This document shows, one piece after another, positions 24,948-63,457 of a stretch of 64,000 bases of DNA. The notes beneath the pieces are model-generated. The model saw only the letters and a program-made list of their open reading frames with translations. It searched no databases and was not told the origin of the DNA. The stretch covers positions 1-64,000 of the forward strand of contig CASCZI010000003.1 of NCBI GenBank assembly GCA_949156565.1. Direction: 5' to 3'. A program made the position numbers and the translations under genes. This stretch comes from an uncultured Alphaproteobacteria bacterium (GTDB taxonomy: Bacteria > Pseudomonadota > Alphaproteobacteria > Rs-D84). Each line of letters opens with the position of its first letter. The stretch's first letter is position 1.

Positions 24948-25115
24948 ATTGATGTTTAATAATGGGGCGCAATATTTTAACGCGCGCCATCGGCACATGG
25001 TGCGGATTATTATTTTTCGTGGAATTGACCGCGCGCAGATAACGCGTTTTATGAAAAAGACGCTTTTCATAGAATGACTTTTATGATAGAATATAAGGGA
25101 TTAAAGAGAGTTATT

Positions 25116-28004: not shown

Positions 28005-28008
28005 AAAC

Positions 28009-28033
28009 AATCCCGCCAACGGCGGGATTTTTA
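28009..28033. terminator. Bidirectional terminator
   Basis: AATCCCGCC/GGCGGGATT stem with an AAC loop and T-run between convergent genes ending at 28004 and 28031. Confidence 0.85.
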
Positions 28034-29050: not shown

Positions 29051-29129
29051 GTTTATATAATAGACAAATTAATATTATTTGTCAACCATGAATCTGTAAA
29101 AAACATTTTTTTATTTATGTTTGATATGA

Positions 29130-29135
29130 TATAAT
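29130..29135 (+). promoter_or_regulatory. Minus-10 element for the gene at 29162
   Basis: A perfect TATAAT at 29130-29135 in an AT-rich divergent region; no good -35 is seen. The ribosome-binding site GGGAG follows at 29151-29155. Confidence 0.45.
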
Positions 29136-29161
29136 ACAAAAGATAGTAAAGGGAGTAATTT

Positions 29162-31216
29162 ATGCACAAATTGCTAAAATTAATTGGGGCATCGGTATAT
29201 GGTCTGGGGGCGGTGGCGGTGATAACAACGGCCAACGCGGCGGATCCGGCACGTGGGGGGACATCCACCATGGGGCGCAATGCGGGACGTGTGGGAACAC
29301 TGGGGACGACGGCGGCGCGTATGCCGACTATGCCGATTTTACCAGGTGGATCGGTTGGTACAATTTCCCCGGATGTGAATAAAAATCCAGTAACGCAACC
29401 ATCTAAATGTGACGATGGTGGGGTTGTGGATTCTGAATATACAGTTGAAAATTGTATGAATGATGTGGCGGCATGTGTCAATGGTGGCGCGTTGCCGGGT
29501 GGAATCAATGATTTGTTTAGTGAAGATATGCGTAATGCCATCATGAATGGAATGGGATTATGTTCGGTTCAGGTGGAACGTTGCATTTCAGATGTACGTA
29601 AAAATTGTCGTGATCTGTATACCAATGCTGCGGATGTTTGGGCGGACTTTAATTCCCGTCGGATACAACCCGAATATTATAACTTTGTTTTGCGTAAAAC
29701 GGGTCTGACCCCGAACCAGGCGGAAAATACATGTCTGTTGCTGGATCGTAATACATTCGGATCATCCTTTGCCGCTGTGTCAAAAGATGGTAACGTTACC
29801 ATGGAATACGATAAACGGATTGGGGCCTATAACGGTCAGAATGTTACCAAAAACAATACAATGGGGGTAACAGTAAACAGAGATTCTGATACGGTGGATG
29901 GTGTTCGTGGTCATTATGCCCGTTGGGATGCGGTAACGGCAACATGCCTGGTACGTGTGGCGGCATATAACAAAGGCAAGGCCATTTCCAATACATGGTT
30001 ATTTGGGGCATTGGGTGATGATAAACCGGCCGAAGCATGGAAAGCGGCGGGTGACACGTTTAAATGTAACAAAGATCTGTTTGGATTTTCATTAATGAAT
30101 AACACCAGTACGGTCGCCGTTGTTGGTGTTGGGGGCGGTACATTGGCCGGGGCCGGTGTTGGGGCCATTATTGGTCATGGCAAACGTAACTTTGATTGCG
30201 AAAACAAATCACATTTAAAAGAACTAAGTGATGGTTTGCGTGGCAGTGGCCGTATCCAAATCTTAAACACCTATTTGGCGATGCCGGTGTCAACGGTCAA
30301 AGATCTGGACAAGAGTGCGTGCGAAGGCGTTGTAAATTTGTATAATAAATATCAACAGTTGTTGCCGGCCGTGTCTTCATGTAATGGGTCAACCACAACA
30401 ATGTCCAGCATGGTTACGCAATTTCCATTGACGGTTAACATGGGTGAAGTTATCAGCAATGTTCAGCCAACGAACAATGCAGATGGCAGTGTAATTGTAT
30501 CCTTTACGGTGACAAAGTCCGATGGCAATACAGAACAAAGAACACAAACCTTTACCAAGGATCAGATGACGCAACTAACATCGCAAACATCTGCGACAGC
30601 CGATGCATCAGGGTGTGCATTCAAGACATTGAAAAAATCATCTTCGTTTATGGATGGGGACATTTATTGCACGGCGGGCGATGCCCCCAGCAATGATCCC
30701 AATGCACAATGTTTATCAACAGCGGCAATAAATCGTCAGTTGGCAGATCTAAAAACGGTGTTTGATTCCGCAGAAATTTTGGAAGGGGAAGATTCCAATA
30801 TGGGCAAATCAATCGGGTTTGGTGCCTTGGCGGGTGCCGGGGCCGGTGGATTGGCGACGGCGATTACCGCATTTACCGAAAAGAACAACATCAGCTGTCA
30901 TGTGGGTGATGGACTGGATAAAGTTGCCTATGGTAAATCTGGGAAAATTGATACGTTGAAAGATTTCTATGTGAAATGGAATCTGCAATTGCCCGATACC
31001 GCCGCACCAACGGTTACGATTGACAAGAACTGTGACGCGTGGCGCAACGCGTGTGCCAAGTACACGGATCGTAATCAGTGCCGTTCGGTTGGCTTTGGAT
31101 TAAAGAATGAAAACGGGAATATTGAAATTATCAATAATGCCTGTACCATGTACGAGGGCAGTACCCTTTGTGTGGAAAATCGTTCTGCATCTGTATCGGC
31201 CGGTGTATGCCAGTAA
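29162..31216 (+). CDS. Exported Cys-rich protein with two glycine-zipper segments
   Basis: 684 aa. The signal peptide ends near residue 29 (ITTANAADPAR). The mature N-terminus contains AARMPTMP, which resembles ASRMPTMAP in the protein at 42350. A CNKDLFGFSL block leads into a glycine-zipper segment (GVGGGTLAGAGVGAIIGHG), and a second one (GFGALAGAGAGGLATAI) lies about 230 residues later. Many paired cysteines occur throughout. The block CxxxxFGxxxM plus glycine zipper recurs in the 38671-40257 protein (CDQNWFGIDM, then GAGLGTAAGAI), so the two share a module. Glycine zippers often insert in or oligomerise at membranes. The function is unknown. Confidence 0.75.
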   Translation: MHKLLKLIGASVYGLGAVAVITTANAADPARGGTSTMGRNAGRVGTLGTTAARMPTMPILPGGSVGTISPDVNKNPVTQPSKCDDGGVVDSEYTVENCMNDVAACVNGGALPGGINDLFSEDMRNAIMNGMGLCSVQVERCISDVRKNCRDLYTNAADVWADFNSRRIQPEYYNFVLRKTGLTPNQAENTCLLLDRNTFGSSFAAVSKDGNVTMEYDKRIGAYNGQNVTKNNTMGVTVNRDSDTVDGVRGHYARWDAVTATCLVRVAAYNKGKAISNTWLFGALGDDKPAEAWKAAGDTFKCNKDLFGFSLMNNTSTVAVVGVGGGTLAGAGVGAIIGHGKRNFDCENKSHLKELSDGLRGSGRIQILNTYLAMPVSTVKDLDKSACEGVVNLYNKYQQLLPAVSSCNGSTTTMSSMVTQFPLTVNMGEVISNVQPTNNADGSVIVSFTVTKSDGNTEQRTQTFTKDQMTQLTSQTSATADASGCAFKTLKKSSSFMDGDIYCTAGDAPSNDPNAQCLSTAAINRQLADLKTVFDSAEILEGEDSNMGKSIGFGALAGAGAGGLATAITAFTEKNNISCHVGDGLDKVAYGKSGKIDTLKDFYVKWNLQLPDTAAPTVTIDKNCDAWRNACAKYTDRNQCRSVGFGLKNENGNIEIINNACTMYEGSTLCVENRSASVSAGVCQ

Positions 31217-31889: not shown

Positions 31890-32694
31890 CTATCTGATAT
31901 CTTGTTCGTTGTCATATGCCCCCAAAATTTTGAGTCTGGGGGGGGCATCCCAACCCCGGGCCCACATGTAGTAGCTACAAAAGACCACCCCGTCGGTATC
32001 ACCCACAAAAATTTTCAATTTTTGCGGGGCCCGATTTCGTCCACCCATCCACCGGAGGGGAACTTTGCGACAGCGTGGCACGGTGCAAGTTCTCCCCTCT
32101 AGATGAGTACCCCCGAAGGGGAGGGGGGCTTTACCTGAACCCTGGACACTGTATTGCCGACCTTGGGCTTGTGTGTGAATCTAAAAGAAAGACCACCCCG
32201 GCCGCTACGCGTCCACCCATTCGCAGAGGGGAACTTTGCTACAACGTGGCACGGTGCAAGTTCTCCCCCTGTGGGAGGTGGTCTTTACCTGAACTCTGCA
32301 CTCTGAACCATGAACAGTGGTATGGCAAGACCACCCCGTCGGTATCACCCACAAAAATTTTCAATTTTTGCGGGGCCCGATTTCGCCCACCCCGACCCCG
32401 GGCCCCGCGGAAATTGTTAAATTTCCGTGGGTGGGTTCTGGCGGGGGAACTTTTCTTTGTTCTTAAATTCCACACCTCGGGCACCCGCGCGAGGTCTTTT
32501 AAAAAAGACCACCCCGTTGTTATCACCCACAAAAATTTTCAATTTTTGCGGGGCCCGATTGCGGCCACCCCCGACACCGGGCCCCGCGGAAATTGTTAAA
32601 TTTCCGTGGGTGGATTCTGGCGGGGGAACTTAGATCCGAACTTAATCTCTTTTACCTGAACTCTGAACCCTGATATTGCCAATATGGCGGGGTG
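31890..32694. repeat. Intergenic repeat cluster with palindromic units
   Basis: About 800 bases with no convincing gene. A unit of about 57 bases starting GACCACCCCGT and containing CAAAAATT-TTC-AATTTTTG and GCGGGGCCCG occurs at 31983-32039, 32329-32385 and 32507-32563. A second unit with CCGCGGAAATT/AATTTCCGTGG lies at 32402-32450 and 32581-32630. A third, starting AGGGGAACTTTGC and ending TTCTCCCC, lies at 32056-32098 and 32227-32272. Fragments of ACCTGAACTCTG also recur. The short ORFs here only follow the repeats. Confidence 0.65.
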
Positions 32695-32729
32695 AAAAAT
32701 CCCCCCCACACGGTGTTAGGGTGGGGGGA
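32695..32729 (-). terminator. Terminator of the Cys-rich operon
   Basis: On the minus strand, CCCCCCAC and GTGGGGGG (plus 32702-32728) form an 8-bp stem followed by ATTTTT. It lies 30 bases after the stop of the last operon gene. Confidence 0.7.
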
Positions 32730-32758: not shown

Positions 32759-33481
32759 TTATTTTTTGTTATAATATTTATCGCGTTGTTCACTGGATAC
32801 AGTGATCATTTTATCAAACAACTTATTGGTGGCGGCCGCATCGGCACCACTGGTTGAACCGTCGGTACCCGTGCTGTAATTTGCGCCATTCAAAACAATA
32901 ATCCGTGATGGTAATGGGGAATCATCATTACATTCAATATAATATTGGGACGGGTCATAATATTTGCCATAGCATCGTTGATTGGCGATGGCCACCCAAC
33001 CATTGGGGGCCAAATCACGACATTTGGGTTGTTCACCCAACGTGATTTCCCCGCTGGGGACCACTTCGTCAACGCGATCAAGAATTCCATTACACCAAAC
33101 GTTGACCAATTTACCATCAACCATAACCTGGGCGCCGTCGGCACTGCTGCGGCGCATGCCATAGCAATCACCATTCAAAATGGTTGTGTCAAAATCAGCC
33201 TTGATCCCGCGTCGTTGTTCAATATCCGATCGGGTCATAGGGGTGGGGGCCGATGCCGGGGTTGTCAATGCATCAGGACAGATCAATTTCATCCCCCAAC
33301 AATTGCCCATGTTATCCCACATTTCGGGTTCAAAACCCATTCCCATGCCAATATAACATTTGGTTGGATTCGGGCGACAGATGTCTGCCTGGGTCCACCA
33401 TTGCATTAAACCGGCGCCGTTTGCCATGTTTGCCCATGCCCCCATGGCGATTAAAATGAAAAAATGATGTATGCGTGTCAT
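32759..33481 (-). CDS. Small exported Cys-rich protein, last gene of the operon
   Basis: 240 aa with a signal peptide (MTRIHHFFILIAMGAWANMANG) and eight or more cysteines in the mature part (DICRPNPTKCYIGMG, NCWGMKLICPD, LNGDCYGMRR, VWCNGILD, PKCRDLAPNGW, QRCYGKYYD). It lacks the CMDxFC signature. It follows the 846-aa family member by 60 bases on the same strand and precedes a terminator. The function is unknown; co-transcription with four other exported proteins suggests a shared envelope structure. Confidence 0.7.
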   Translation of the reverse strand: MTRIHHFFILIAMGAWANMANGAGLMQWWTQADICRPNPTKCYIGMGMGFEPEMWDNMGNCWGMKLICPDALTTPASAPTPMTRSDIEQRRGIKADFDTTILNGDCYGMRRSSADGAQVMVDGKLVNVWCNGILDRVDEVVPSGEITLGEQPKCRDLAPNGWVAIANQRCYGKYYDPSQYYIECNDDSPLPSRIIVLNGANYSTGTDGSTSGADAAATNKLFDKMITVSSEQRDKYYNKK

Positions 33482-33541
33482 GTCTTGATCTCTGAATTAT
33501 ATTTTTAATTTTATCAAATTTTTAGTTCGCGTGCAAGACAT

Positions 33542-36082
33542 CTATTCTTGGGTTTGTTCTTTCTCTTCATCCCCAGGTGATGGATTGGACGGATCGGTGT
33601 TATTTTTGATGGTGGTGGTGTCATCTTTTATTTGGCAATATCCCCACCGCAGATTTGTCCCGGTCAAGTTATAGAAATTAACATGCTGATCCTCGAATTT
33701 ATCAGTTGGGTTTTCCTTGTTTTTGGGGGTGGTGGTCCATATCCCCCCCAAGCGTTCGCATTCCGCGTTCAATTGGGTTGTCATATCAACACGAATGGTG
33801 TCCATCACGGTATTAATATCTTGCAGAATAACGTTTGGTGCAACGTCGGTTCCTGTTTCATTCCATGATGGACGAACGCATACCTGTAACGCATACCGCG
33901 CCAGTTTTTGATACACACTGCCGATATAATCGTCCGGACACAAAAGCGCAGAGTTTTTGTCTTCGATTGATTGTGGCCCCTCGGTTCCACCATTACACAT
34001 ATAATTGCCATTCCCCTGGAACTCATCACAAGCGCAACAATCCCCGCCATTTATATTATAGGTAGGATCAGCAGTAGTCAGGTTATCCTTGGCCTTACCT
34101 TCCGTACTTGCCATGCACAGATAATAACCCCTGTTGCATGACTTATAGTGCCGTTCGGGCAGGCACATATATGGATTTTCGATCTCCGCGGGCTTAGGAT
34201 TGCCTTCGTTATAGGACAAGTCTTGGGCATTGGTGCAACCCGGACTTTGGGCACCGCGCATTGATCCCGGCGCGTATGTTCGACAGCCATAGGGATATGT
34301 ATGGATTGAATCACTGGTCGGGACGGCACAAATATCACGTGCAAATTCTGTTAATGTGGCTTTGCATTCTTTGGCAATTTTTTGATCGGTAATACCATGC
34401 ATTAATGTTCCCAATAATGCCATTCCCCCCGGGCCACCACCGTACAAATTGCTGCATGCGTCTAATTTAACACGGCATAATTCTTCGGATAATTCAAGAC
34501 GTTGACCCAATAATAATTGTTCTTTGATATTACTAAAATCTTTCAAAGACTTACTCTGATCATCATAGCATTGGTTCACCACATTCAAACATTCATTTTT
34601 TACCGTGCGGACACGATCTTGTTGGGATTGATAGATTTCCGTAATCGCTTGGCGCATGAATTCATCCCATACATCTTTGGCGACGTCGCGGCATTGATCC
34701 AGGCTGGATTCTGCAAAAGATTTTTTTCGATTTAATTCGGCAATTAATGCCATATTCATATCGTTGGTTAAAATGTCCCCAGATAACGAAAGTTGCGTTT
34801 CCAATTGATAAAAATCCGCCGAATAAATGGGTTCGCCGGTGTCGCGGTTCAGGTATAATCCCGTAATATCGATACAATGCACATAATCGGTCCCGCATGC
34901 CATGTCGTTGGTGATGGCGTTACGAACATTTGCAATACAATCATTAATTGCCGCGGAATTGTGTACGTTATAATTTTCCAATCGTGCCAAATTCATTTCA
35001 CGTTCGGTGGCGCGGATTTCCCCCGATGCCACGTTTGTCTTTTGCCCCAGTGCGCCGGCCAATGTGGTGCAATCGTTTTCAATATACATACCATATGCCG
35101 ATACCACCATATTAAATGTGGCCGTTGATCCACATATCGGTGCAATCATTTCGGCACATTGGGTATGGACAGCGTTATAGAGTGCTTCGCCCGTCAGGTC
35201 GGCCAAACTGGTCCCGGCGGCCAGATCGGTTGTCGACCATATGGCATTAATATCACCAGCAATGTCAAGTTGCCCCTGGGTCGATAAAGATTTTGTTCGC
35301 GTTTTGTTTAACACATCACTGATGCCGGCCAAGACAGATGCACTGCCGGATTTATCGGTGGCACCGGTGGCAACCGATTCGCCTTGGGATGGGTTTAACA
35401 TGGCGTTCACTTCGGCCGGGGTTTTGGTTATCACCTCTATATTTAAATCTTTAAAGGTTTGCAGACGTTCCCCCGTCTGGGCCAGAACGCGTTCATGTTC
35501 CTTGATTTCGTCCAGGCGTGCCGAACACACACACCGGCGATAGGTATCATTTTGCTTGGCACAGAATTGATCCATACATGTAAAATAGGCATCCCGGCAT
35601 GTATTGTACCCATTTCCCGTCGCCGACGTTGCAACCGCCGCCCGCGCCAATGCCGCCCGTGATGTTGTTGCCGTTGTTGTCCCACGTGCAGAACGAACCG
35701 CATTTGTTGCCCCCGTCACACGCGCCAATGCCGATCGTGCGGTTGATGGGGATGTTGAAACGGTTCCACCGGTCCGTGCCGAACGGGCGGTTGTCGATAC
35801 CGTGGCCGCCCGTGATACACGGGGTGTGCGTGACGTAACGGTGGGGGTGGTGGCACTGCGTGATGATACGGATGTGCCCGATGTTCGGGTGGTGGTGCCG
35901 GACGTTCGTGTTTCGCGTGTGGCCACCGATGGGGTCGCGGATGTACGTGATGCGCCAACCGCCGCGGATGTGCGGGATGTGGTCTGGGCACTGCGGGCGG
36001 TGGTGGTTTCAACACGCGCGGCCGCCATGACCGATGTCATCCAGATGATTGCGCCCAAGAGTCCCAGCGAGATTTTTCTCAT
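33542..36082 (-). CDS. Large exported cysteine-rich protein, CMDxFC family
   Basis: 846 aa. A signal peptide (MRKISLGLLGAIIWMTSVMA) is followed by an unusually long, about 135-residue Arg/Thr/Ser/Ala stretch (such as TRTSGTSVSSRSATTPTVTS), then the signature at Cys162, 169, 174, 184 and 186 (CRDAYFTC-MDQF-C-x9-C-V-C-S). Then come CGTDYVHC and a VWDEFMRQAI helix, as in its paralogues. The C-terminal third differs: a Cys-rich part with TYPYGCRTYAPGSMRG, GDCCACDEF and LRWGYCQIKDD. It is fourth in a five-gene minus-strand operon. The periplasm or outer surface is likely; the role is unknown. Confidence 0.78.
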   Translation of the reverse strand: MRKISLGLLGAIIWMTSVMAAARVETTTARSAQTTSRTSAAVGASRTSATPSVATRETRTSGTTTRTSGTSVSSRSATTPTVTSRTPRVSRAATVSTTARSARTGGTVSTSPSTARSALARVTGATNAVRSARGTTTATTSRAALARAAVATSATGNGYNTCRDAYFTCMDQFCAKQNDTYRRCVCSARLDEIKEHERVLAQTGERLQTFKDLNIEVITKTPAEVNAMLNPSQGESVATGATDKSGSASVLAGISDVLNKTRTKSLSTQGQLDIAGDINAIWSTTDLAAGTSLADLTGEALYNAVHTQCAEMIAPICGSTATFNMVVSAYGMYIENDCTTLAGALGQKTNVASGEIRATEREMNLARLENYNVHNSAAINDCIANVRNAITNDMACGTDYVHCIDITGLYLNRDTGEPIYSADFYQLETQLSLSGDILTNDMNMALIAELNRKKSFAESSLDQCRDVAKDVWDEFMRQAITEIYQSQQDRVRTVKNECLNVVNQCYDDQSKSLKDFSNIKEQLLLGQRLELSEELCRVKLDACSNLYGGGPGGMALLGTLMHGITDQKIAKECKATLTEFARDICAVPTSDSIHTYPYGCRTYAPGSMRGAQSPGCTNAQDLSYNEGNPKPAEIENPYMCLPERHYKSCNRGYYLCMASTEGKAKDNLTTADPTYNINGGDCCACDEFQGNGNYMCNGGTEGPQSIEDKNSALLCPDDYIGSVYQKLARYALQVCVRPSWNETGTDVAPNVILQDINTVMDTIRVDMTTQLNAECERLGGIWTTTPKNKENPTDKFEDQHVNFYNLTGTNLRWGYCQIKDDTTTIKNNTDPSNPSPGDEEKEQTQE

Positions 36083-36221
36083 TCCCTTTTATATATCTTG
36101 GATTATATTTTAGCAAAATTTTTAATCCCAGGGCAAGGTCTTTGTTCAATGATTTTCACGGGTGACCATCATGGGTTTGGACGTATTTATGGATGAATAA
36201 TTATGGGTATATGCCAAAAAT

Positions 36222-38639
36222 TTATTGCGCCGAATTGACAGAACAAGATCCCGCGTTGAAATCTATGACAACCTTGCGGCATTGTTCATATTGGTCGGTG
36301 GGAATATCCGTGCAGTCGTTGGCACCAACGCCATTGGTGGTGATGTTTGCATTGGGGATCCCATTTGCGGTCAAAACCGCTGCGACGGCATTCGCGCGAT
36401 CACGTGACAAACCAACGTTATCAAATCCCCGTTTCCCGGTGGGATCGGTATGGCCCGTTACCGTAATGCAATAATTGGTATCGCCGGTTGATTTAAGTTG
36501 TTCGGCAAATTTCTTTAATTCTGTGGTGGCCCCATTGCTTAGCTGCTTGGAACCCACTTTTTCAAACAAACTATCCGATGGCAGGGCGATCGATGGTTGC
36601 GTCGATTGTGTCGGCGTTGCCAATGCGGTTGGCAATCCGGCCGATGTAAGGGATGTCCGTAAAGACGCCTGTGTAGAAACGGTAGATACAATATCTGGCT
36701 TTTTCTGCGCTTGTTTTTCTGTACATAATTTACCCCGAACCTCATGCGTGTCGGCGGGACATGTACATACCCCCAGGTTGGATGGTTTTTCCACAAATGT
36801 GTATCCATTCTGGCACGTACAATTGCCCGTCTGGGGATTAACCACAATATTGGGATCGGTTAGACTGCATTTTGCACTAATACCGGTTTTGAGTGGGGTG
36901 CATGCCCCATTGGGGGACGTGGGTGCATAACCCGCCATACAGATACATGTTGTATCATCGAAAACACGTTCATTTGTGCCGCATTTTTCGCAAAGATTGG
37001 TATTTTTATTATAGACGTGCGTTTTCACATTGCATTTACATGTAGGATACGTACCGGTTGCGTCCGACGGACATTGGATCGTGGGAACAGGGATCTTTGA
37101 CACATTAAATTTAAGATCGGTCAACATTTTGTCGTATTTATTATTGATCTTTTCGCTGTTTTCTTTGGGGGCGTTTTTATTAATCAAAACATTCGCCACA
37201 CCCGAAACCGCCGCACCGGCGATGGCCATGGTTTTTCCGGTATTTTCACGTTTTTTACTTTCTTCGCGTTGGGTGTTCCATCGTTTGGCATCTTCACCGG
37301 TGGGATTGGTTATTGCCGCATACACCGATGCAAATGCGCCCCCGGTTTTACCAATACCAACATCGTCATAAAGTCCGGATGTCGCCTTGTCAATCGGCAT
37401 TTCGGATTCAATTCCTGGTTGCAACCCCAGGGCGGTTTTGGTGGATTTTACATTATTGGCCAACGTTATGTATTCTTGATATAAATCATAAAGTGCATTT
37501 CCCCCCGGCAACATGACATTTTTTTCATTATAGTCTATATTTGTCCCATCACCATATTGACACCGGAATGTTTCAATATAGGCACGCATATCCCGTTCCG
37601 ATTTGTCATCAACACGTTGTTCGGCGGCACCCGACGCCCAATCCTTGGACCCGAGACCGACCGTTGCCATGCCCGCCGCCCCCAGCAATTTATTTTCGGT
37701 GGAATTTTCTTTTTCCTTCATTTTTTGGGCGTTGTCTTTTAATTCGTTAATACGATCTTGGGCCAACTTTTTCTCGGCATCGGTGCGCGCCGGTGTTTTG
37801 TTTTCGGTCTTGTCTTTGGTGTCTTGGTTTTTTTGGGTCTTTTCTTCTTTGCATTTGCCGTTGTCGAGTTCAAATCCCTTGGCGCATTCGGTGGCAACAC
37901 ATTTGCGCCCCACCATGTTGGTTGCGGTGGCATTGGCCACCTTGGCCGCGTCATCCGCGGAACACGGTCCCGATTTCTGGGCGCATTTACCATCATCACC
38001 CTTGGCAAAATTGGCATTTTTGCATTCCGACACACAGATCAATTTGTTGCCATCAACCGCATACGTACCTTTGTCTTTGGCGTTGGAATCATTATTTGTA
38101 TCAAAATCGCATTTTTTACCCACCATATAAACGCATTCTGCCGGTGATTTGGACGCATCAAGTTTATAACGCGGTTCATCACACTTGGTTGGAATACATA
38201 AATCCCATTGTTTATTATAGACCATTTCGACAACACCATCGAGTAATGATACCTGATCTTTGCATTCTTTCTGACCGGACAGGTCTTTTGCTTCTACGGT
38301 GACCTCGTCTAACTGATTATTCGAAGGCATCAGCCGCAGATCAAGATTTCCATTCGGGACCGGGATTGTTACACTATCATAACCCATCATAGAAACCGTT
38401 ACTTCTTTCACATCGTTGGGAATGTTGTCAATATTAACATTGCCATTATTATCGGCGGCCCTGCCATCAACACCGCCATCGCTTTTCTTCCAACTTATAT
38501 TAGCCAGGGGCAGGCCAACGCCGTTTTCATCTTTGATTGTCCCCGTGATGGATTGATTGGCCCATGTCGGCATGACGCCCGGCATGACCATCATCACGGC
38601 GATAAATAATTTGATAAAGATATTTTTATATAGTTTCAT
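36222..38639 (-). CDS. Exported multidomain protein with C-terminal OmpA peptidoglycan-binding domain
   Basis: 805 aa. After a signal peptide (about 27 residues) comes a carboxypeptidase-regulatory/Ig-like domain (GTIKDENGVGLPLANISW, VTVSMMGYDSVTIPVPNG). A Cys-rich part follows, then a charged coiled coil (DAEKKLAQDRINELKDNAQK) and two short hydrophobic Gly/Ala segments. EGF-like Cys clusters (YPTCKCNVKTH, CICMAGYAPTS, NCTCQNGYTFV, CTCPADTHEVRG) precede a C-terminal OmpA domain (VTGHTDPTGKRGFDNVGLSR). The OmpA domain should bind peptidoglycan and could anchor the cysteine-rich partners encoded beside it. It is third in the operon. The combination of domains is unusual. Confidence 0.8.
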   Translation of the reverse strand: MKLYKNIFIKLFIAVMMVMPGVMPTWANQSITGTIKDENGVGLPLANISWKKSDGGVDGRAADNNGNVNIDNIPNDVKEVTVSMMGYDSVTIPVPNGNLDLRLMPSNNQLDEVTVEAKDLSGQKECKDQVSLLDGVVEMVYNKQWDLCIPTKCDEPRYKLDASKSPAECVYMVGKKCDFDTNNDSNAKDKGTYAVDGNKLICVSECKNANFAKGDDGKCAQKSGPCSADDAAKVANATATNMVGRKCVATECAKGFELDNGKCKEEKTQKNQDTKDKTENKTPARTDAEKKLAQDRINELKDNAQKMKEKENSTENKLLGAAGMATVGLGSKDWASGAAEQRVDDKSERDMRAYIETFRCQYGDGTNIDYNEKNVMLPGGNALYDLYQEYITLANNVKSTKTALGLQPGIESEMPIDKATSGLYDDVGIGKTGGAFASVYAAITNPTGEDAKRWNTQREESKKRENTGKTMAIAGAAVSGVANVLINKNAPKENSEKINNKYDKMLTDLKFNVSKIPVPTIQCPSDATGTYPTCKCNVKTHVYNKNTNLCEKCGTNERVFDDTTCICMAGYAPTSPNGACTPLKTGISAKCSLTDPNIVVNPQTGNCTCQNGYTFVEKPSNLGVCTCPADTHEVRGKLCTEKQAQKKPDIVSTVSTQASLRTSLTSAGLPTALATPTQSTQPSIALPSDSLFEKVGSKQLSNGATTELKKFAEQLKSTGDTNYCITVTGHTDPTGKRGFDNVGLSRDRANAVAAVLTANGIPNANITTNGVGANDCTDIPTDQYEQCRKVVIDFNAGSCSVNSAQ

Positions 38640-38670
38640 ATCAACATTATTTCGTGTTATTGCGGGACAA

Positions 38671-40257
38671 TTACCGTTTCAGGTCCAGTTTGTCCGGCGT
38701 CCCATTTGTGTTTCCTTTGGTTTCTACCCTGGCAACCGCCCGAACCGATGTATCGGCTTTGGCCCCGCTTTCCCCGTTAAAGAATTCATTTTTCCGTTCT
38801 GCCGCTTTCTTTTCCGAGTCTGTCTTTGCTGTCGACTCCATCTTGACTTCTCCCGCCTTTTTCTTCGCGCTGGGGGTGTCAGAGGTTGAATCTTTGTCTT
38901 TGTTCGTGTCTTTGCCCTTATCTTTTCCGTCCTTTTCCGTTCCCATGACTTGATCCTTGGTATTTTCGTTCTGTCTATCTTCCTTTTCGGCTTTCTTTTC
39001 TTCTTTCTCGGCTTTCTTTTCTTCTTTCTCGGCTTTCTTTTCTGCTTTTTCTGCCTTTTTAACGGCACGATTGGCCTTGGACCGGTCAATTGCGCGATCC
39101 ATGGCGCCGGATGTTATGGCGCCCGCCGCCGTCCCCAGGCCCGCACCCATAAAGGCCGATGTCGCAGATTCCTGGGATCGTGTCAAACGATAGGCGTTTT
39201 CTTTGAATGTTGTCATGTCGATGCCAAACCAATTCTGGTCACAATTAAAGGTGCCACCGGCGTAAAGTTTTTTCGATGCATATATGGTGTTGTTCGACAT
39301 CAGGTTTACGGTAAAGACGCAATCCAAACTGCGTTCGTCAAACATGGCCCCCAAACGGTCGCATTGGGAACGCATACTGTCGCGTAATGCGTAAAGGCGT
39401 TCTTCGTCACGTTTGACCTGTTTTTCGGCATTTGTACGCAAATTGCCAAATATTTCCCCCGCACGTGATGCCAATCCATTGTCAACCCGCGTCGTGCATT
39501 GATTGTATTTCTTGGAACATGTGGCCATCGCGGCGTCTGCGGCCGATTTCGCCAAACATTTTTGCATGTTTATTCCGCATTCCGTGGTCAGGCAATTCAT
39601 ATAATCCGTTCCACAATTGATCACATTTTCATATGCCGCCACTTTTGCATTAAGATCACGATCGGCCTTTAATTCCCGGCTAAGGGCGGATACCTGGGCA
39701 CCGGTGCATGTGGTGTTGCGTTGACATGCCGCAATCTTGTCCCCCCAATCGGTATCCCCGTCACCGGCGCATTTTTGAAAATCATCGCCGCATTTTTCGG
39801 TCATACATTTGTGGATATCCATGTGACATGTGTTTTTACCCGCACCGGTGGCCGCCCCGGCCGCCGAAATTGCATCGGCCGCATCCAACGCCGCCATCTG
39901 GGCCCGCATTCGCGCGGCCAAATCATCGGTGCCTGTATCCGATGAACCCGTTGCCGCCATGGTTTCTGCAAACTGGGACGATCGATCCGCAATAACAAAT
40001 TCGGGGTCATTAGACGTTTCGGGTTCAGAATTCGATGCAGATGCGTCGGATGTTTGGGTTGTTGTGTTCGCCGTTGTGGCCGTGGTGGCCACAGGTGTCC
40101 GGCCCGCCGATGCGCGGGAAACCGCGACACGCCCCGATCCGCCGCCCCGGGTGGTTACCGCCGCATGCGTGTCACACAAAACGCACATGGCCATCACCGC
40201 CGCCATGGTAATCCATGTCATCATTGTGTGCGTAAGATTTTTTTTGTTTTTCTTCAT
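38671..40257 (-). CDS. Exported Cys-rich protein with glycine zipper and charged coiled coil
   Basis: 528 aa. The signal peptide ends near CDTHA. The N-terminal low-complexity region begins AVTTRGGGSGRVAVSRAS. Modules CHMDIHKCMTEKCGDDFQKC, CGTDYMNCLTTECGINMQKC and CSKKYNQCTTRV follow. The CDQNWFGIDM block leads into a glycine zipper (GAGLGTAAGAITSGA), shared with 29162-31216. The C-terminal part is a long Lys/Glu repeat coiled coil (KAEKEEKKAEKE, three times). It is second in the operon, 12 bases after the first gene. The function is unknown. Confidence 0.75.
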   Translation of the reverse strand: MKKNKKNLTHTMMTWITMAAVMAMCVLCDTHAAVTTRGGGSGRVAVSRASAGRTPVATTATTANTTTQTSDASASNSEPETSNDPEFVIADRSSQFAETMAATGSSDTGTDDLAARMRAQMAALDAADAISAAGAATGAGKNTCHMDIHKCMTEKCGDDFQKCAGDGDTDWGDKIAACQRNTTCTGAQVSALSRELKADRDLNAKVAAYENVINCGTDYMNCLTTECGINMQKCLAKSAADAAMATCSKKYNQCTTRVDNGLASRAGEIFGNLRTNAEKQVKRDEERLYALRDSMRSQCDRLGAMFDERSLDCVFTVNLMSNNTIYASKKLYAGGTFNCDQNWFGIDMTTFKENAYRLTRSQESATSAFMGAGLGTAAGAITSGAMDRAIDRSKANRAVKKAEKAEKKAEKEEKKAEKEEKKAEKEDRQNENTKDQVMGTEKDGKDKGKDTNKDKDSTSDTPSAKKKAGEVKMESTAKTDSEKKAAERKNEFFNGESGAKADTSVRAVARVETKGNTNGTPDKLDLKR

Positions 40258-40269
40258 TTCTTATTATTG

Positions 40270-41142
40270 TTACAACCGTTCGCATGCCAATATATAATAT
40301 TTGCACCATAAAATGGCCGATGCTTTTTCCCCGGGGAAATCCGTCGCGCATTTATTTGGCATATTGGTTGCACAAACATGATCCACGCATTTATCCCGAT
40401 TTGTATTATCGGCGCATGCCTTGGTTACAGATTCTAATTTGGATTGACGGGCGGTTTGATAGGCCGCAATAATAGATTCAAAAACAGCATCCGCCGCCGC
40501 AAACATTTCATCACGATCGGCAATCATTTGGGTTCGAATGTCGGCAAAGAATTCGTTATCGCATCCGGCGGCTTCTTCGACGCTGCACGCGGCAAAAGAT
40601 TGATCGAAATCCGCGTCGGTGGCACATTTTTTATAATCCGGACCACACCGATTGGGTTTGACAAGACACGCCTGAACCGCGGTTTGACATTGGGCCATGG
40701 TTTTATTTTGTAAATTGTTTAATTTGGCCACGGCATTGTCGCGTTGTATACTAATTCCGGCGGCGGTACATGATTGATCAATTAATTTATCGTATGTATC
40801 CTCTATATCATCGGGGGTACAACCGGCGATTTTTTTTAAACACTGGGTCTGGGCCCAAACATACCGTTCCCCAGGAACCTTGGGGGCATTCTTTAATTCC
40901 TTGTCCGAAAGGGATGTTGACGAAGATTTGCCGACCGATACCATAGGCATATTCTTGGGGGTTTCGGGAACGCTGTCGCCGGCACCGCAATATTGACACC
41001 GTGCGCCGGGATTGGCCCCAATATTAATCGCACAGACAGAATCCAGACACTTGGTCAAATTCATGCGTGAACATGTCGCCGCATTTGCCGCAACCGAACC
41101 CAAAAACATGGGAACAAGTAAAAATAGGGTTTGTGCCTTCAT
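40270..41142 (-). CDS. Exported Cys-rich protein, first gene of the operon
   Basis: 290 aa with a signal peptide (MKAQTLFLLVPMFLGSVAANA). The mature part is small and rich in paired cysteines (CSRMNLTKCLDSVC, ARCQYCG, CQTAVQACLVKPNRCGPDYKKC, AACSVEEAAGC, CADNTNRDKC). CGPDYKKC belongs to the CGxDxxxC module found across the locus. A helical region (FADIRTQMIADRDEMFAAAD) lies near the C-terminus. It leads the five-gene operon from the divergent promoter region at 41143-41266. The function is unknown. Confidence 0.74.
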   Translation of the reverse strand: MKAQTLFLLVPMFLGSVAANAATCSRMNLTKCLDSVCAINIGANPGARCQYCGAGDSVPETPKNMPMVSVGKSSSTSLSDKELKNAPKVPGERYVWAQTQCLKKIAGCTPDDIEDTYDKLIDQSCTAAGISIQRDNAVAKLNNLQNKTMAQCQTAVQACLVKPNRCGPDYKKCATDADFDQSFAACSVEEAAGCDNEFFADIRTQMIADRDEMFAAADAVFESIIAAYQTARQSKLESVTKACADNTNRDKCVDHVCATNMPNKCATDFPGEKASAILWCKYYILACERL

Positions 41143-41211
41143 TCTCTTCTAATATTGTTTAGTATATCAAAACGCAGCCATCAACGCAAAGGAAAAATGT
41201 TAAATCAATTG

Positions 41212-41266: not shown

Positions 41267-41926
41267 ATGGTACAAAAAAAGCGGGTTAATTTGACATCAG
41301 ATCCGGTCCCAGAATTGTCCGACGATCGCAAAGGCGGGATGGCGGTGTTTTGGCGTGATATTCGGGATTTCGGTGGGGCGATTTTGACCAGTCGTCTGGC
41401 CCAGGCGATAATTGTTGCCATGGCGGTTTATTGTTTCATGACGTGTTATTATCGTAAAACAGATGGAATCAATTCATCGGTTCGTGGGAATTCATCATGT
41501 AAACGGGAATTGGAACTGTCATTGAAAAATCAAGAAATTATTGCCGCGCGGGCTGATTCATTACAGCAGGTTATATATGAAATTGACGCCCAATGTGATG
41601 AACGGGTTGGGCAATTGCAAATCGAACTAAACGATCAGATGGCCCGGACGGATTCGATTATGCATCTGTTGGATGTGTGTCGTGGTTTTCGCGCCGCCAA
41701 GGTGGTTAAAAAGGGCAGGGTGGAAAATTCATCCCCGGCACCAAAACGGGTAAAAAAACAAACGCCTGTGAAACAAAGCATGGTTTCAAAGCCGGAAAAA
41801 GAACAGGTTCGTGTCGTGCAAAAACAACCCCAGAAAACAACACAACCCAAGAAAACGGTTAATGAAGATAAGCAACAGGTTCAATATTTCTTGTGGTTTC
41901 AAAATAAAAAATCGATGCAATACTAA
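41267..41926 (+). CDS. Single-pass membrane protein with coiled coil and Lys-rich tail
   Basis: 219 aa. The cytosolic N-terminal 40 residues precede a membrane segment (about residues 42-63, RLAQAIIVAMAVYCFMTCYY). A coiled coil (ELELSLKNQEIIAARADSLQ and onward) and a Lys/Pro/Gln-rich tail (KRVKKQTPVKQSMVSKPEKE) follow, with a C-terminal VQYFLWFQNKKSMQY. The topology resembles bitopic cell-wall or division-associated proteins such as FtsL/FtsN-like factors, but no motif proves this. It is transcribed from its own promoter and ends at a shared terminator. Confidence 0.62.
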   Translation: MVQKKRVNLTSDPVPELSDDRKGGMAVFWRDIRDFGGAILTSRLAQAIIVAMAVYCFMTCYYRKTDGINSSVRGNSSCKRELELSLKNQEIIAARADSLQQVIYEIDAQCDERVGQLQIELNDQMARTDSIMHLLDVCRGFRAAKVVKKGRVENSSPAPKRVKKQTPVKQSMVSKPEKEQVRVVQKQPQKTTQPKKTVNEDKQQVQYFLWFQNKKSMQY

Positions 41927-41953
41927 AAAATCCCGCGTTTTGCGGGATTTTTT
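41925..41953. terminator. Bidirectional terminator before infA
   Basis: AAAAAATCCCGC-GTTTT-GCGGGATTTTTT between the convergent 219-aa gene and infA. Confidence 0.88.
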
Positions 41954-42209
41954 ATTGATTGCTTTGGTTGGTATCTGTGGGTGCCGGGCGATTGCGTTCA
42001 ACAAATGTGATCCGCCCCTTGTTCAGGTCATAGGGTGTCATTTCCACCCGTACTTTTTCACCAACGTTGACCCAGATGCGCGCCTTACGCATTTTGCCGC
42101 ATACGGTGGCCAAAATTTCGTGACCATTTTCCAATTTAACCCGAAACATGGTGTTGGGTAACTTATCCTCGACCGTGCCATTAAAAACAATTACATCATC
42201 TTTTGCCAT
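41952..42209 (-). CDS. infA: Translation initiation factor IF-1
   Basis: 85 aa from the Met at 42209 ([20 protein letters not shown]). The S1/OB-fold core is intact ([45 protein letters not shown]), with a short tail of about 12 residues. IF-1 occludes the A-site during initiation. It is not next to secY, as is common in alphaproteobacteria. The SD AAGGAATAA precedes the start. Confidence 0.95.
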
Positions 42210-42349
42210 GATTATTCCTTGTGCCGTTGTGTTGGCATAAATCATACGTTTGTGGGCAACAAAATGCAAGAATAATTTTAAAGGGCTTGCATCATGGGGT
42301 GGGATTTGATAAAATTATCTGTATAGGAAAAAAGGGTTAGGTGGGGGAT

Positions 42350-44518
42350 ATGAAATTAAAATATCTGTTGATTTGTCTGTGTTTCATGCCGGGATTGGCG
42401 GATGCGGCCACCCGTGGTGCGGGAAATGCCCGTGTGGGAATGGCACGTGGTAACACCGCCGCGGCATCACGTATGCCAACCATGGCGCCCGGGAATTTGA
42501 CATCGACAGATGGAACAACAAAAACATCAACAGGTTTAACGTTAACCGATAATACCGTGGCGGCCCCAAAAACATCGGGGGATGAATCAACGCCCGTGAC
42601 ATCGGAATCCACAACGGGTTCGGGCACATGTCGTGATGCCTATTGGGATTGCATGGATCAGTTTTGTTTGATGGATGAATCCGAAGGGTATCGTTGCGTG
42701 TGCAGTGATAATTTTAACCAATCCAAAGATTTAATTAATGAAATTTTAGCCATTCAGACCCAGGCAGATGAGCTGTATAACGAAGGGGTTGAACGTGAAA
42801 AGCTGGGGGCTAAGGCGCGCTTGGTCTTTGGTGAAACCAATGCCGATGCCGCGGCAACCACCATCAGCCACAGACCAGATTTAAGGGCATGGTTGAAATC
42901 AGACAGTGACAGTTTGGATGCCGACGAAAATATTGGTGATGCCTTGTACCAAATGGCGGCAGAATATTGTGAAAACCGATTGGATGCATGTGGTGATGAT
43001 GCAGATATGGTAGAAATGCTCTATGCGCGTCAGATTGTAAATAATTGTAAAACGTTTAGTTCATATTTGGGTGATCAAAAAACAAATGCATTGGCGTATA
43101 AACGCACGGCCGAGGCCGCGGTTCGCACCGCGCGTGCCGCCAATTTGGATACCACAAATAAATATAACAGTGGGGAATGTTTATTGGCATACCGGTCTTG
43201 TATCGCGGACAAGGGTGGCTGTGGATCGCATTTTGAAAACTGTTTGGATGCAAAACTGCTTAGCCGGCGTGCCGACGCATGTGAAAATATTTTGGATCAA
43301 TGTATGGCCACGCGCGATTATGTGTTAACCCAATGGGCGGACGAAGCCGAAATGATTTTGGCAGATGCGGCGAAATACGCCGATAAAAATCAGCGCGCAA
43401 CATGTTTGGCGCGGATCCAAGATTGTCTTGAAGAAAGTTGTTCCACCGGTACAAATACGGCATGTTTAACGGATGTCAATGTGGCGGCGGGTATTTGCCC
43501 GGTTATTACTGAATGTAATGAAATGATTCCGGGGATACAATCGGTTATCAACGATAAATTGGCCTATTTGCGGTCAAAGTTCTGTGAAAATGATGTGGAT
43601 AAATGTCTTCAGGATAAATGTGGACAAAATTACGATGGCCCAGAATGTCTGGGGAAGTCAACGTCGGAAATTGTTGCATTATGCCCCCAGAGTCGGTTCC
43701 CATCATGTAAGGATGAACCCCAATTTGACATTATCGTTTCTGCGGCATTATTACAGATGGATTATCAAATGTTACAGGGATGCTTGAATTATTTCGGGGA
43801 ACAGTTAAATCGTGTTTGTGGGACAGATATGTCATGTTTGCCGGCCAATGATACGGTGATGGCGTTAAAAGAAATTCCCGACGATGCCGAAGACTTTGCC
43901 CAATTGCGTGTGGATGTGCGGGAACAATCAAAACAGGCGGTTGATGATTTCTTTAAACAATTTGAAAAAGACATCACGGTCAGTGCCTGTGCCGATACGG
44001 TATCGGCCGGCAAAGGCAAAAAGAATAGCAAAAGTTTAGGACAAAACGTATTCAACAGTGCCAAGATGATCGCAGAAATAAGCGCGGAAAACCGGGCCAT
44101 GCGGGAATTGGAGACAAAAATTGCCGAAATATCGCGTAAATTGGATGTTGCCGCGGCAGAAAAACTTTGTAAAAAAACATACAAGGTTGAAAACCCCAAA
44201 GATTTGGACGAAAAGAAAAAGAAGAACTATAGCTATATCCGCAGTGTATCGTTCGAACCGTCTTTGCGTAATTGTCACGTTTGCCGCATGCAACAGGTAT
44301 GTGAAACCGGTGGGATGAGCAAGTCTGCCGCCGGATTAAAAGCGGCGGCGGGCGGTATGGCCGCGGGGGCATCGGCCGGCACGATGGTTGCCCCGGGTTG
44401 GGGGACCGCCATTGGCACTGTGGTTGGTGCGGTTGGTGGATTCTTTGGCGGCAGATCGGCCGGTGGCAAAGAAGAATTCTGTCAGGAAGTGGAATCGTGC
44501 GAAGACATTAATATGTAA
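42350..44518 (+). CDS. Large exported cysteine-rich protein, CMDxFC family, with C-terminal glycine zipper
   Basis: 722 aa. The signal peptide (MKLKYLLICLCFMPGLADA) and a Gly/Ala/Arg/Thr-rich stretch precede the signature at Cys94, 101, 106, 116 and 118 (CRDAYWDC-MDQF-C-x9-C-V-C-S). CLLAYRSC and CGSHFENC follow, then CENDVDKCLQDKC and LCPQSRFPSC. Near the end, the CHVCRMQQVC motif precedes a strong glycine zipper (AAAGGMAAGASAGTMVAPGW, GTVVGAVGGFFGGRSAGG) and a last CQEVESCEDINM. CHVC and the final DI(N/P)M are shared with the next gene. It lies 31 bases before that gene, so the two are an operon. Confidence 0.8.
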   Translation: MKLKYLLICLCFMPGLADAATRGAGNARVGMARGNTAAASRMPTMAPGNLTSTDGTTKTSTGLTLTDNTVAAPKTSGDESTPVTSESTTGSGTCRDAYWDCMDQFCLMDESEGYRCVCSDNFNQSKDLINEILAIQTQADELYNEGVEREKLGAKARLVFGETNADAAATTISHRPDLRAWLKSDSDSLDADENIGDALYQMAAEYCENRLDACGDDADMVEMLYARQIVNNCKTFSSYLGDQKTNALAYKRTAEAAVRTARAANLDTTNKYNSGECLLAYRSCIADKGGCGSHFENCLDAKLLSRRADACENILDQCMATRDYVLTQWADEAEMILADAAKYADKNQRATCLARIQDCLEESCSTGTNTACLTDVNVAAGICPVITECNEMIPGIQSVINDKLAYLRSKFCENDVDKCLQDKCGQNYDGPECLGKSTSEIVALCPQSRFPSCKDEPQFDIIVSAALLQMDYQMLQGCLNYFGEQLNRVCGTDMSCLPANDTVMALKEIPDDAEDFAQLRVDVREQSKQAVDDFFKQFEKDITVSACADTVSAGKGKKNSKSLGQNVFNSAKMIAEISAENRAMRELETKIAEISRKLDVAAAEKLCKKTYKVENPKDLDEKKKKNYSYIRSVSFEPSLRNCHVCRMQQVCETGGMSKSAAGLKAAAGGMAAGASAGTMVAPGWGTAIGTVVGAVGGFFGGRSAGGKEEFCQEVESCEDINM

Positions 44519-44549: not shown

Positions 44550-47030
44550 ATGAGAGAAAAACTGATTTTTTCATTAATGATTTTAACAGTGTTCACGGCA
44601 TCGATGAGTAATGCGTTTGCCGCCACCACCCGGGACAAAGGACAATCTGTGATTCAATCCGGCACCAATGTTCGCGAACGGGTCACGGCGCAGGGTTTGT
44701 ATGATCAGACATGCTATGATGCCTATTATGGATGTATGGATCAGTTTTGTATTTTGGATAATACCAATGGCGGCACATGTGCGTGCAGTGATCAAAATGC
44801 CGATTTGGAACGTGAATACAATCTGATTAAAAATACATTGAACGAAGCAGATCGTATTGAAAAGGTCGAAGTGGAAAAGATCATGGCCGGGGCCCAGGCC
44901 GATATCATATTTAATGGCACGCGGCGTTATGACAAAGATGGAAATGTTGTTGGTGTCAATGATGTCGTGCAATTAACCGAAGAAGAAGAAAAAGAACAAA
45001 GAAAAAAAGAAATTGACGACATTTTCAATAAAACAATTTACGACGATGATGACGACGATGAATTTATTTCATTGGATTTGATTGCGGAAAAATCGGGTTC
45101 AGAATTATTTGATGTGGCGGAAAAAATCTGTGTGGGTCGTGCCCCAGAAAGCTGTAGCAAAGACATCCCATTTTTACGGCAATTGTATTCGCGTCAGATC
45201 TTGGCCGATTGCAAGGCATTTGAAAATGAAAATAAAACCGCCAAAGCGAATGCGATGAAGGCCATGGCCAAGGCCGAAAGTGCAGTCGTTGAAGCCCGTA
45301 AAAAGATGTATAAATCGGTTAATGAATACGGTCTGGGCGAATGTATGGTTGCATTTAAAAAGTGTATGGTCGGCGAGGACGCATGTGGCGATAACTGGGA
45401 AAATTGTGTGTTTGGTATTGCGTCCCAGAATATGCAAAACGACACATCCACAGATAATAAACAATATCGCGAAAATGTAAGTAAATGGTCCAAAGAATAC
45501 GATATTACAACATCAACGCTGGAAATCATTTCGGCCAAGCGTGACATTTGCGAACGCGTATTGGATAAATGTATGGCCGTGCGTGATCAGGTATGGGAAA
45601 AATTCCTGCGCGAGGCGGCACCCACCATCAAAATCGCCGAACAAAAGGCAGAATCTAAAATGCGTCAATCATGTTTGGGCGATATTACCGAATGTATTCA
45701 AATTGCATGTATAAGTGATATTGCCCACAAAGGTGTCGCCACAATGGATGCATGTCTGGCCAAACCGGAAATGGTGCGTTCATTTTGTAAAATTGAACTG
45801 GATCGGTGTGAAAAGATGGATTCAGGTATTTGGGATTTTGTTAAATTAGAATTGGCGTCCCTGGGCAGCGAGGCATGTGAACAAGAGGTCAAGGATTGCC
45901 TAACCGACGAAAACCGGTGCGGGCCGAACTTTGAAAATTGTATCGGTTTAGATTTGGAATATGTCCAAACGATGTGTCCGGTTGAACGTTTGGTTGTATG
46001 CAGCAAGGGCAAGCCAGATTTCAAACAGTCGGATATTGAATTTATCGTGCGTGGATTGTATAACGAATTAGATTTGACGATGTTGACCCAATGTCAAAAA
46101 ATCATTGACGAACGCATGAAGGAATTATGTGAATCAACAACGGATTGCAATCGGTTCGCGGCGGATGATACTTTGGGAACTGGATCATTGCGGTTGCAAA
46201 AACGGGGTGATGTCTATCGCATATCGGGCATGATTTCGTTCGGCAGTATTAAAATGGGGCAACCGGATGGTTCTGTCAAGGACGAGACCAAAGACGAAGT
46301 TTATACATTAAAGCCCGGCGAAATCGGCGTCGATGAATATATCGAACGCGTACGTGAAAAGGGCCAAACGGTCCCAGATTCCGAAGGTATTATTGCCACG
46401 ATCGAAGAAGAATTGAATAATATTGCGGGGACAATCAACCGGACGATCGCCATGATCGAACAAGATCCCAAGGTGCAATTCTGTGCCTATGGACGTGATC
46501 TAAGCAATATTCAGTCAGAGGCCCGTACAACCGTGGGTCGGTATCCGAATATATTAAATGACGCCAAAATGGTTATTGCAGGTGCGGCGTTGGCCAAGGC
46601 CCAACAGAACTATAATAGAAAATTGGACAAAGAATTGATCCCGGGGGCCACCAAGGATGCAGAGATTGATGTGGCGCAATATATGTGCCAAAAGATTGCG
46701 GAAACCGGCGAAAATATGGGGGCGGGTGCCAAAATGTCAACCCCGTTGGTTCCGCCGTATTCAATTGTGTACGATATTGGCACGGGGTTGGGCACGGCAG
46801 ATTTGACCACGGGCGGCAAAGGGCATTTCACCACCCAGGTCGAAGGTAACGGCAGTGGTATCACCAAAGATATTACCAGTGTCTTTAACCGTGAAACCCG
46901 CAATTGCCACGTGTGCACGACGGTCACGACCACCAATTGCAAGAAAAATGGCAGCAGTTTGTTCCATCGCAGCAAGCATAGCTGTTCGTCGACGACCGCT
47001 GAACCCATATGCGAGGATATTCCCATGTAA
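44550..47030 (+). CDS. Large exported cysteine-rich protein, CMDxFC family
   Basis: 826 aa. The signal peptide (MREKLIFSLMILTVFTASMS...AFA) is followed by only a short linker before the signature at Cys55, 62, 67, 77 and 79 (CYDAYYGC-MDQF-C-x9-C-A-C-S). An acidic patch (DDDDDDEFISLD) follows. The CMVAFKKC...CGDNWENC, VWEKFLREAAP, CLTDENRCGPNFENC and CIGLDLEYVQTMC blocks align along their length with 25116-28004. CHVCTTVTTTNC is near the C-terminus, which ends CEDIPM. It is second in a two-gene operon with 42350. Roles as an envelope scaffold or adhesin are guesses. Confidence 0.8.
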   Translation: MREKLIFSLMILTVFTASMSNAFAATTRDKGQSVIQSGTNVRERVTAQGLYDQTCYDAYYGCMDQFCILDNTNGGTCACSDQNADLEREYNLIKNTLNEADRIEKVEVEKIMAGAQADIIFNGTRRYDKDGNVVGVNDVVQLTEEEEKEQRKKEIDDIFNKTIYDDDDDDEFISLDLIAEKSGSELFDVAEKICVGRAPESCSKDIPFLRQLYSRQILADCKAFENENKTAKANAMKAMAKAESAVVEARKKMYKSVNEYGLGECMVAFKKCMVGEDACGDNWENCVFGIASQNMQNDTSTDNKQYRENVSKWSKEYDITTSTLEIISAKRDICERVLDKCMAVRDQVWEKFLREAAPTIKIAEQKAESKMRQSCLGDITECIQIACISDIAHKGVATMDACLAKPEMVRSFCKIELDRCEKMDSGIWDFVKLELASLGSEACEQEVKDCLTDENRCGPNFENCIGLDLEYVQTMCPVERLVVCSKGKPDFKQSDIEFIVRGLYNELDLTMLTQCQKIIDERMKELCESTTDCNRFAADDTLGTGSLRLQKRGDVYRISGMISFGSIKMGQPDGSVKDETKDEVYTLKPGEIGVDEYIERVREKGQTVPDSEGIIATIEEELNNIAGTINRTIAMIEQDPKVQFCAYGRDLSNIQSEARTTVGRYPNILNDAKMVIAGAALAKAQQNYNRKLDKELIPGATKDAEIDVAQYMCQKIAETGENMGAGAKMSTPLVPPYSIVYDIGTGLGTADLTTGGKGHFTTQVEGNGSGITKDITSVFNRETRNCHVCTTVTTTNCKKNGSSLFHRSKHSCSSTTAEPICEDIPM

Positions 47031-62895: not shown

Positions 62896-62913
62896 GTTCA
62901 ATCCTTTTATATT

Positions 62914-63456: not shown

Positions 63457-63457
63457 T

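Follow-up and report, generated by a model that had tools for sequence, protein, structure and literature searches.

A five-gene run for cysteine-rich exported proteins in an Rs-D84 alphaproteobacterium consists of two separately conserved modules and is probably not one operon

The window analysed here is a 64,000-nt stretch of DNA (contig CASCZI010000003.1 of assembly GCA_949156565.1, positions 1 to 64,000 of the forward strand) from an uncultured alphaproteobacterium of the order Rs-D84, whose genome comprises 1,071,069 bases in 10 contigs. Between positions 32759 and 41142 the window carries five consecutive minus-strand open reading frames (ORFs), labelled here A to E (A290, B528, C805, D846 and E240, after the number of amino acids, aa, in each product). 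An earlier note on this DNA had described the run as a five-gene operon encoding a complex of exported, Cys-rich proteins with one OmpA-domain anchor. When the ORFs were re-checked, all five were found with the sizes and positions given in that note, separated by gaps of 12 nt (A-B), 31 nt (B-C), 139 nt (C-D) and 60 nt (D-E). All five proteins display, by eye, a signal-peptide-like segment at the N-terminus, and their Cys content lies between 3.2 and 6.9%, compared with 0.7% for the ORFs that encode ribosomal proteins in the window. Homologues of A-E are present across the genus, on contigs that belong to Candidatus Enterousia or to uncultured Alphaproteobacteria, and judged from these homologues all five are real genes. 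The coordinates of the features are collected in Table 1.

The arrangement of the five genes was compared with that in related genomes. Eighty loci around gene D were fetched from other genomes, 79 of which were usable. In 70 of the 79, E lies directly after D on the same strand, usually with a gap of 40-80 nt, and the gene upstream of D is infA in 36 loci and the divergent gene G in 30 (the short infA ORF not having been retained), so that the usual order in the relatives is H, G (divergent), infA, D, E. Genes A and B behave as a separate pair. Both are single-copy in 24/24 genus genomes tested, apart from a few weak extra matches, and B follows A directly in all 24, counting one pair that is split by a contig end (L164). 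A C-type gene comes next after A-B in most genus genomes, the content of this slot being variable. On the divergent side of A-B the relatives usually carry genes for a small membrane protein and for an ankyrin-repeat protein of about 1,100-1,250 aa that has a barrel-like region at its C-terminus. In 14 other genomes that have A-B-C and D on one contig, the two lie 6-59 kb apart and never abut; the strand is shared in every case, which is a matter of common synteny and not of 14 independent events.

Among the genomes examined, A-B-C abuts D only in the genome of the window. Here the A-B-C block, together with the divergent gene F219, fits exactly between the infA terminator and the D promoter, both of which are intact (Table 1), and equivalent infA terminators are present in the relatives. 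The five-gene run is thus two separately conserved modules, A-B-(C) and D-E, which are juxtaposed in this genome. The earlier note had proposed co-occurrence in related genomes as a check on its model; the order A-B-C-D-E is not kept there, A-B(-C) and D-E being conserved each on its own. It had also named separate transcripts and independent distribution of the genes as the observations that would speak against it. Independent loci are what the relatives display, and separate transcripts are predicted, as set out below.

With orthologues aligned at the start codon, the 75 nt upstream were scanned for the extended -10 motif TGnTAnnnT. The motif was present before A in 23/24 orthologues (shuffled mean 3.6), before D in 42/43 (shuffled mean 5.3), before E in 30/30 (shuffled mean 2.1) and before the divergent gene G in 26/27 (shuffled mean 5.5). 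Before B it was found in 2/27 orthologues, which is at chance level (shuffled mean 2.0), and before C-type genes in 1/11. The full motif, TTGnnn-spacer-TGnTAnnnT, occurs 19 times in the window vs 8.4 expected, and is placed 18-26 nt ahead of A, D, E and G. Since promoters are conserved at A, D and E but not at B, the predicted units are A-B-C, D and E, and the five genes are probably transcribed as these three. The scan found no terminator in the C-D or the D-E gap. After E, the hairpin and T-run reported by the earlier note are indeed present, as seen by eye and by scan, with a fold energy that is no better than that of shuffled sequences (z -0.16) and ordinary for the composition. Taken together, the conserved promoters at D and E and the separate A-B-C and D-E loci elsewhere contradict the proposal of a single operon, and it is probable that the five genes do not form one.

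Table 1. Positions of genes, predicted promoters and terminators in the window, and of one gene on another contig of the same genome
Feature	Position	Strand	Remarks
Gene A, 290 aa, exported, 20 Cys	40270..41142	-	single copy, always with B next in the genus
Gene B, 528 aa, exported	38671..40257	-	ORF with homologues
Gene C, 805 aa, exported	36222..38639	-	CarboxypepD_reg, Cys-rich parts, core, OmpA
Gene D, 846 aa, exported, 31 Cys	33542..36082	-	one of several paralogues
Gene E, 240 aa, exported, 9 Cys	32759..33481	-	next after D in nearly all relatives
Predicted A-B-C promoter	41161..41189	-	TTGCGT-17-TATACT, extended -10
Predicted D promoter	36107..36136	-	TTGCCC-18-TAAAAT, TG-extended, in C-D gap
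Predicted E promoter	33508..33536	-	TTGCAC-17-TAAAAT, TG-extended, in D-E gap
Predicted G promoter	42287-42315	+	
Probable terminator after E, hairpin and T-run	32694..32729	-	rho-independent type
Hairpin with T-runs on both strands	41927..41953		terminator of infA (-) and F219 (+); upstream edge of A-B-C block
F219, 219-aa single-transmembrane protein	41267..41926	+	divergent from A; positional counterpart of relatives' small membrane protein
infA (IF-1)	41952..42209	-	D directly downstream of infA in relatives
Gene G, 725 aa, Cys-rich, exported	42341..44518	+	D-family paralogue; glycine-zipper-like C-terminus
Gene H, 826 aa, Cys-rich, exported	44550..47030	+	D-family paralogue
Gene J, Cys-rich, exported	25074..28004	+	D-family paralogue; downstream of rpoA-rplQ
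Gene I, 684 aa, Cys-rich, exported	29162..31216	+	two glycine-rich hairpins; lacks C-x6-CM-xxx-C signature
Multi-transmembrane CPVC protein	C4:62167-62676 (L225 2168-2677)		in the window's genome

Next, the relationship between the proteins was considered. The earlier note had spoken of several disulfide-rich partners, and the flanks of the run extend this picture, as further Cys-rich exported proteins that it did not mention (G, H, I and J) lie on both sides. Membership of a family was defined by export together with a helical cysteine signature, C-x6/7-C[MLI]-xxx-C. This signature is displayed by 25/25 A, 28/28 B, 83/84 D, 75/75 G, 69/70 H and 9/12 J proteins, and is absent from C (0/20), E (0/74), I (0/9), the membrane protein x339 (0/9) and mscS (0/27). 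It occurs in 2/629 other ORFs, one of the two being the A homologue of the outgroup. In D, the signature, CRDAYFTCMDQFC, sits after a low-complexity linker rich in R, S and T. Profile comparison gave clear homology between D and G (hhalign probability 99.1) and a weak relationship between A and B (hhalign probability 90), and the number of Cys residues is nearly constant within types (20-23 in A, mostly 36-38 in G). Most of the proteins, namely A, B and D together with G, H and J, therefore appear by sequence to belong to one previously unnamed family, designated here the Rs-D84 Cys-helix family. The idea of several related Cys-rich partners thus holds for A, B and D, with A and B as an obligate pair in 24/24 genomes, and does not extend to C and E. 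Relationships of E to D, and of A to D, were also sought by profile comparison and were rejected, as the signal peptides alone aligned. In a genome from another family of the order (G027, L167), G-like, J-like, H-like, A and B genes stand in one tandem run, and because of this a common ancestral cluster of A, B and G/H/J-type genes is likely.

When compared with Pfam and NCBIfam, A, B, D and E matched no family above cut-off and gave only sub-threshold noise, and profile searches of PDB sequences with the A, D and E alignments gave nothing credible. An AlphaFold 2 model of B contains a helical, Cys-rich core (aa 141-300) at a predicted local distance difference test score (pLDDT) of about 90, in addition to β-strands, a glycine-rich hydrophobic stretch at aa 362-386 or thereabouts, and a charged, variable tail.

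Gene C differs in its composition. Its product consists of a CarboxypepD_reg domain at the N-terminus (aa 30-115, Pfam), which the earlier note had missed, a Cys-rich part, a core of about aa 285-515 that is found genus-wide, a further Cys-rich part and an OmpA domain (aa 695-775). The OmpA domain announced by that note was recovered as PF00691 with E=7.8e-16 and 58.7 bits against a cut-off of 27.2. Residues D732 and R748 of C occupy the diaminopimelate-site positions, and the TD and SxxRA motifs are invariant in the aligned OmpA domains of C-type proteins. In OmpA_C-type domains, Asp and Arg residues bind diaminopimelate (PMC5974059). Consistent with the anchoring role suggested by the earlier note, the score above cut-off and the invariant Asp and Arg support the assignment of the OmpA domain of C as a predicted peptidoglycan binder. 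CarboxypepD_reg, Cys-rich, core, Cys-rich, OmpA is a recurring domain order among C-type proteins, whose length (525-1,329 aa) and composition vary; several C-type proteins gave no OmpA or CarboxypepD_reg match, and as some lack the OmpA match, the slot does not always supply an anchor. The core of C is a mobile domain that C shares with numerous other exported proteins in the genus (L252-L265). In the relatives it is found near the N-terminus of proteins of 1,600-2,400 aa, one of which has a Kdo/WaaP-kinase-like match, and also at the C-terminus of trypsin-like proteins. This distribution suggests that the core may have a docking or localisation role.

The cysteines of A, B and D may plausibly be disulfide-bonded. 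Redox partners were sought in 25 genomes of the order. A DsbA-like protein was found in 23 of the 25; that of the window's genome (C3:125067-125543; L223 729-1550) has an N-terminal membrane region and a CPYC site. DsbB and VKOR were found in 0/25, while control genomes gave matches. In 17 of 23 genomes a small protein with multiple transmembrane segments, and with a C-x-x-C motif right after its signal sequence, is encoded on the same strand as the second D paralogue, 0.1-0.9 kb ahead of it (L231-L251). The corresponding CPVC protein of the window's genome is a candidate DsbA partner that might substitute for DsbB or VKOR.

Comparison with known systems gave analogues, and membership in the chlamydial complex or the PorE group was not supported. 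The closest functional analogue is the chlamydial Cys-rich outer-membrane complex (OmcA/OmcB/MOMP), with which the Rs-D84 proteins would share the occurrence of several exported Cys-rich proteins in a dependent bacterium of small genome and, possibly, the use of disulfides for envelope stability. In contrast to that complex, no OmcA, OmcB or MOMP family was among the Pfam and NCBIfam matches to E=1, the Rs-D84 proteins are mainly helical by prediction and carry the C-x6-C signature, and the bacteria belong to an alphaproteobacterial order. TraN, TraU and TraH of F-type conjugation are also large, Cys-rich, exported proteobacterial proteins; none of the three was among the Pfam and NCBIfam matches to E=1 of A, B, D, E, G and H, a type IV secretion system not having been searched for. 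With OmpA_C, Pal, YiaD and YfiB, protein C shares a domain above the Pfam gathering cut-off and the diaminopimelate-binding Asp and Arg. Unlike these proteins, it reaches no NCBIfam OmpA equivalog above cut-off, has no lipobox that could be seen, and adds the CarboxypepD_reg, Cys-rich and genus-specific core regions. The closest domain analogue of C is PorE of type IX secretion, a lipoprotein in which a carboxypeptidase-regulatory-like domain is joined to an OmpA domain that binds peptidoglycan (PMC7192894), along with tetratricopeptide repeats and a β-propeller. C likewise pairs such a domain with OmpA_C, but it has no tetratricopeptide repeat or β-propeller match, differs in domain order and spacing, and contains Cys-rich inserts; the lipobox is again not seen, and the NCBIfam PorE model scores 22 bits on C against a cut-off of 600.

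On balance we favour, while allowing for considerable doubt, an explanation in which two juxtaposed modules, read as three transcripts, encode a Cys-stapled envelope scaffold, specific to Rs-D84, for which C provides a tether. The A, B and D/G/H/J proteins would be exported by Sec, and their cysteines would be oxidised outside the cytoplasm with the help of DsbA. The A, B and D-type proteins would then assemble into a disulfide-stapled helical scaffold, located in the periplasm or on the outer membrane. C would act as a replaceable tether that attaches through its OmpA domain to the peptidoglycan, while its CarboxypepD_reg and Cys-rich parts would present variable surfaces and its core domain would serve for docking to an envelope structure common to the genus-wide core proteins. 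E would be a D-linked accessory.

Several observations weigh against parts of this explanation. Misassembly at the junction of the two modules is possible, although the junction itself lies in unique sequence, and with no terminator detected in either gap, read-through from C to D or from D to E is possible too. C and E do not carry the family signature, and the C-type proteins of L150, L161 and L162 have no OmpA match at E<=0.01. Disulfide formation in the absence of DsbB or VKOR is doubtful. The model of D is of low confidence (pLDDT 61.9), fold searches with the B and D models gave no PDB match at E<=0.001, and the best VIA Z for B, 5.8, has no meaning where the model is helical.

The alternatives differ from this explanation in transcription, in function or in chemistry. 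A true five-gene operon for one complex, with a single promoter before A and co-transcription to the terminator after E, would sit well with the short gaps, the common strand and the lack of an intrinsic terminator between C and D, and also with the module shared by A, B and D and with an outgroup in which A, B and genes of the D type form a single run. The conserved promoters before D and E, the separate loci of A-B-C and D-E in all other genomes, and the position of C and E outside the shared family render this reading decidedly improbable. Storage of thiols or binding of metal by cysteines that stay reduced in the anaerobic gut, with no structural disulfides, would agree with the lack of DsbB and VKOR in the 25 genomes tested and with fermentative, non-respiring hosts (PMC12306168). 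It is nevertheless very hard to reconcile with the presence of DsbA in 23/25 genomes, with a CPYC site in that of the window, or with the regular helical C-x6-C spacing and near-constant Cys number, which suggest pairing, and no His-rich or metal-site pattern was noticed in the proteins; we give it very little weight.

Adhesion or attachment to partners, in which these auxotrophs would hold on to other gut cells by Cys-rich surface structures and feed on them, draws on the predicted partner dependence of Rs-D84 and its wealth of hypothetical envelope proteins (PMC12306168), on the divergent ankyrin protein with a C-terminal barrel (barrel by eye) at the A-B locus of the relatives, and on the large, variable exported proteins, some with trypsin-like or kinase-like domains, that share the C core. 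However, no adhesin domain was found in A, B, D or E, and the conserved, single-copy A and B resemble a housekeeping structure more than a variable adhesin, and attachment as the function seems unlikely, if worth keeping in mind. A bolder form of the scaffold explanation can be put forward only tentatively. Here A, B and D/G/H/J would form an order-specific, Cys-stapled helical envelope machine with exchangeable C-type tethers and core-docked proteins, oxidised without DsbB or VKOR, perhaps through the CPVC protein. If true, this machine would be unrelated to known envelope complexes, and its hosts are partner-dependent gut Alphaproteobacteria.

Further features surround the run. Homology of F219 to the small membrane proteins of the relatives was not supported (hhalign probability 0.1), and it is kept as a positional counterpart only. 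The large protein that neighbours A in most genomes (for example L159 4932-8660, L162 278-3658) has N-terminal ankyrin repeats; its middle part is reminiscent of a degenerate subtilase and its C-terminus of a barrel, both judged by eye. In the genome of the window its gene is on another contig (C9:31049-34744). Dispersed intergenic repeats of about 126 nt with internally inverted halves, AAAATTTTCAATTTTTGCGGGGCCCG, occupy window positions 31981-32631, downstream of E. This family has 45 matches in the 1.07-Mb genome, several of them at contig ends, and one copy follows directly on the barrel-protein gene, close to where contig C9 ends. The idea that this 45-copy family moved the A-B-C block is unsupported, as the repeats are not at the block's own borders. 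J, x339 and I (25074-31216) form a neighbourhood after rpoA-rplQ that is conserved in several relatives. Elsewhere in the window, positions 1-684 encode a protein with FxGISGSPASSMFWGTF-type repeats, homologues of which lie near D in some relatives (L055, L093 and L103), and minus-strand genes resembling phage tail and baseplate genes, possibly of a prophage (by eye), run from about 60487 to 64000 and on into L230.

The B profile matches 130/142 genomes of the order, with strong matches in family f1 and G027 and weak ones in the remainder. In a sample of 187 genomes that belong to the class but not to the genus, the G profile gave no match. Enterousia belongs to the order Rs-D84, whose members are gut bacteria with small genomes of about 1 Mb, lack respiration, are rich in hypothetical envelope proteins and are predicted to depend on partner cells, the mode of contact or feeding being unknown (PMC12306168). 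A literature search found no paper on Cys-rich proteins of the Rs-D84 clade.

For the annotation of these genomes, the present analysis indicates that short distances between genes on one strand predict operons poorly, as it is the relatives and the conserved promoters that divide the run. For the biology of the bacteria, the Cys-rich exported proteins of this conserved, order-specific family, among them the A-B pair, which is single-copy in nearly all genomes of the taxonomic family, are concrete candidates for the envelope or contact structure by which partners might be contacted or fed on.

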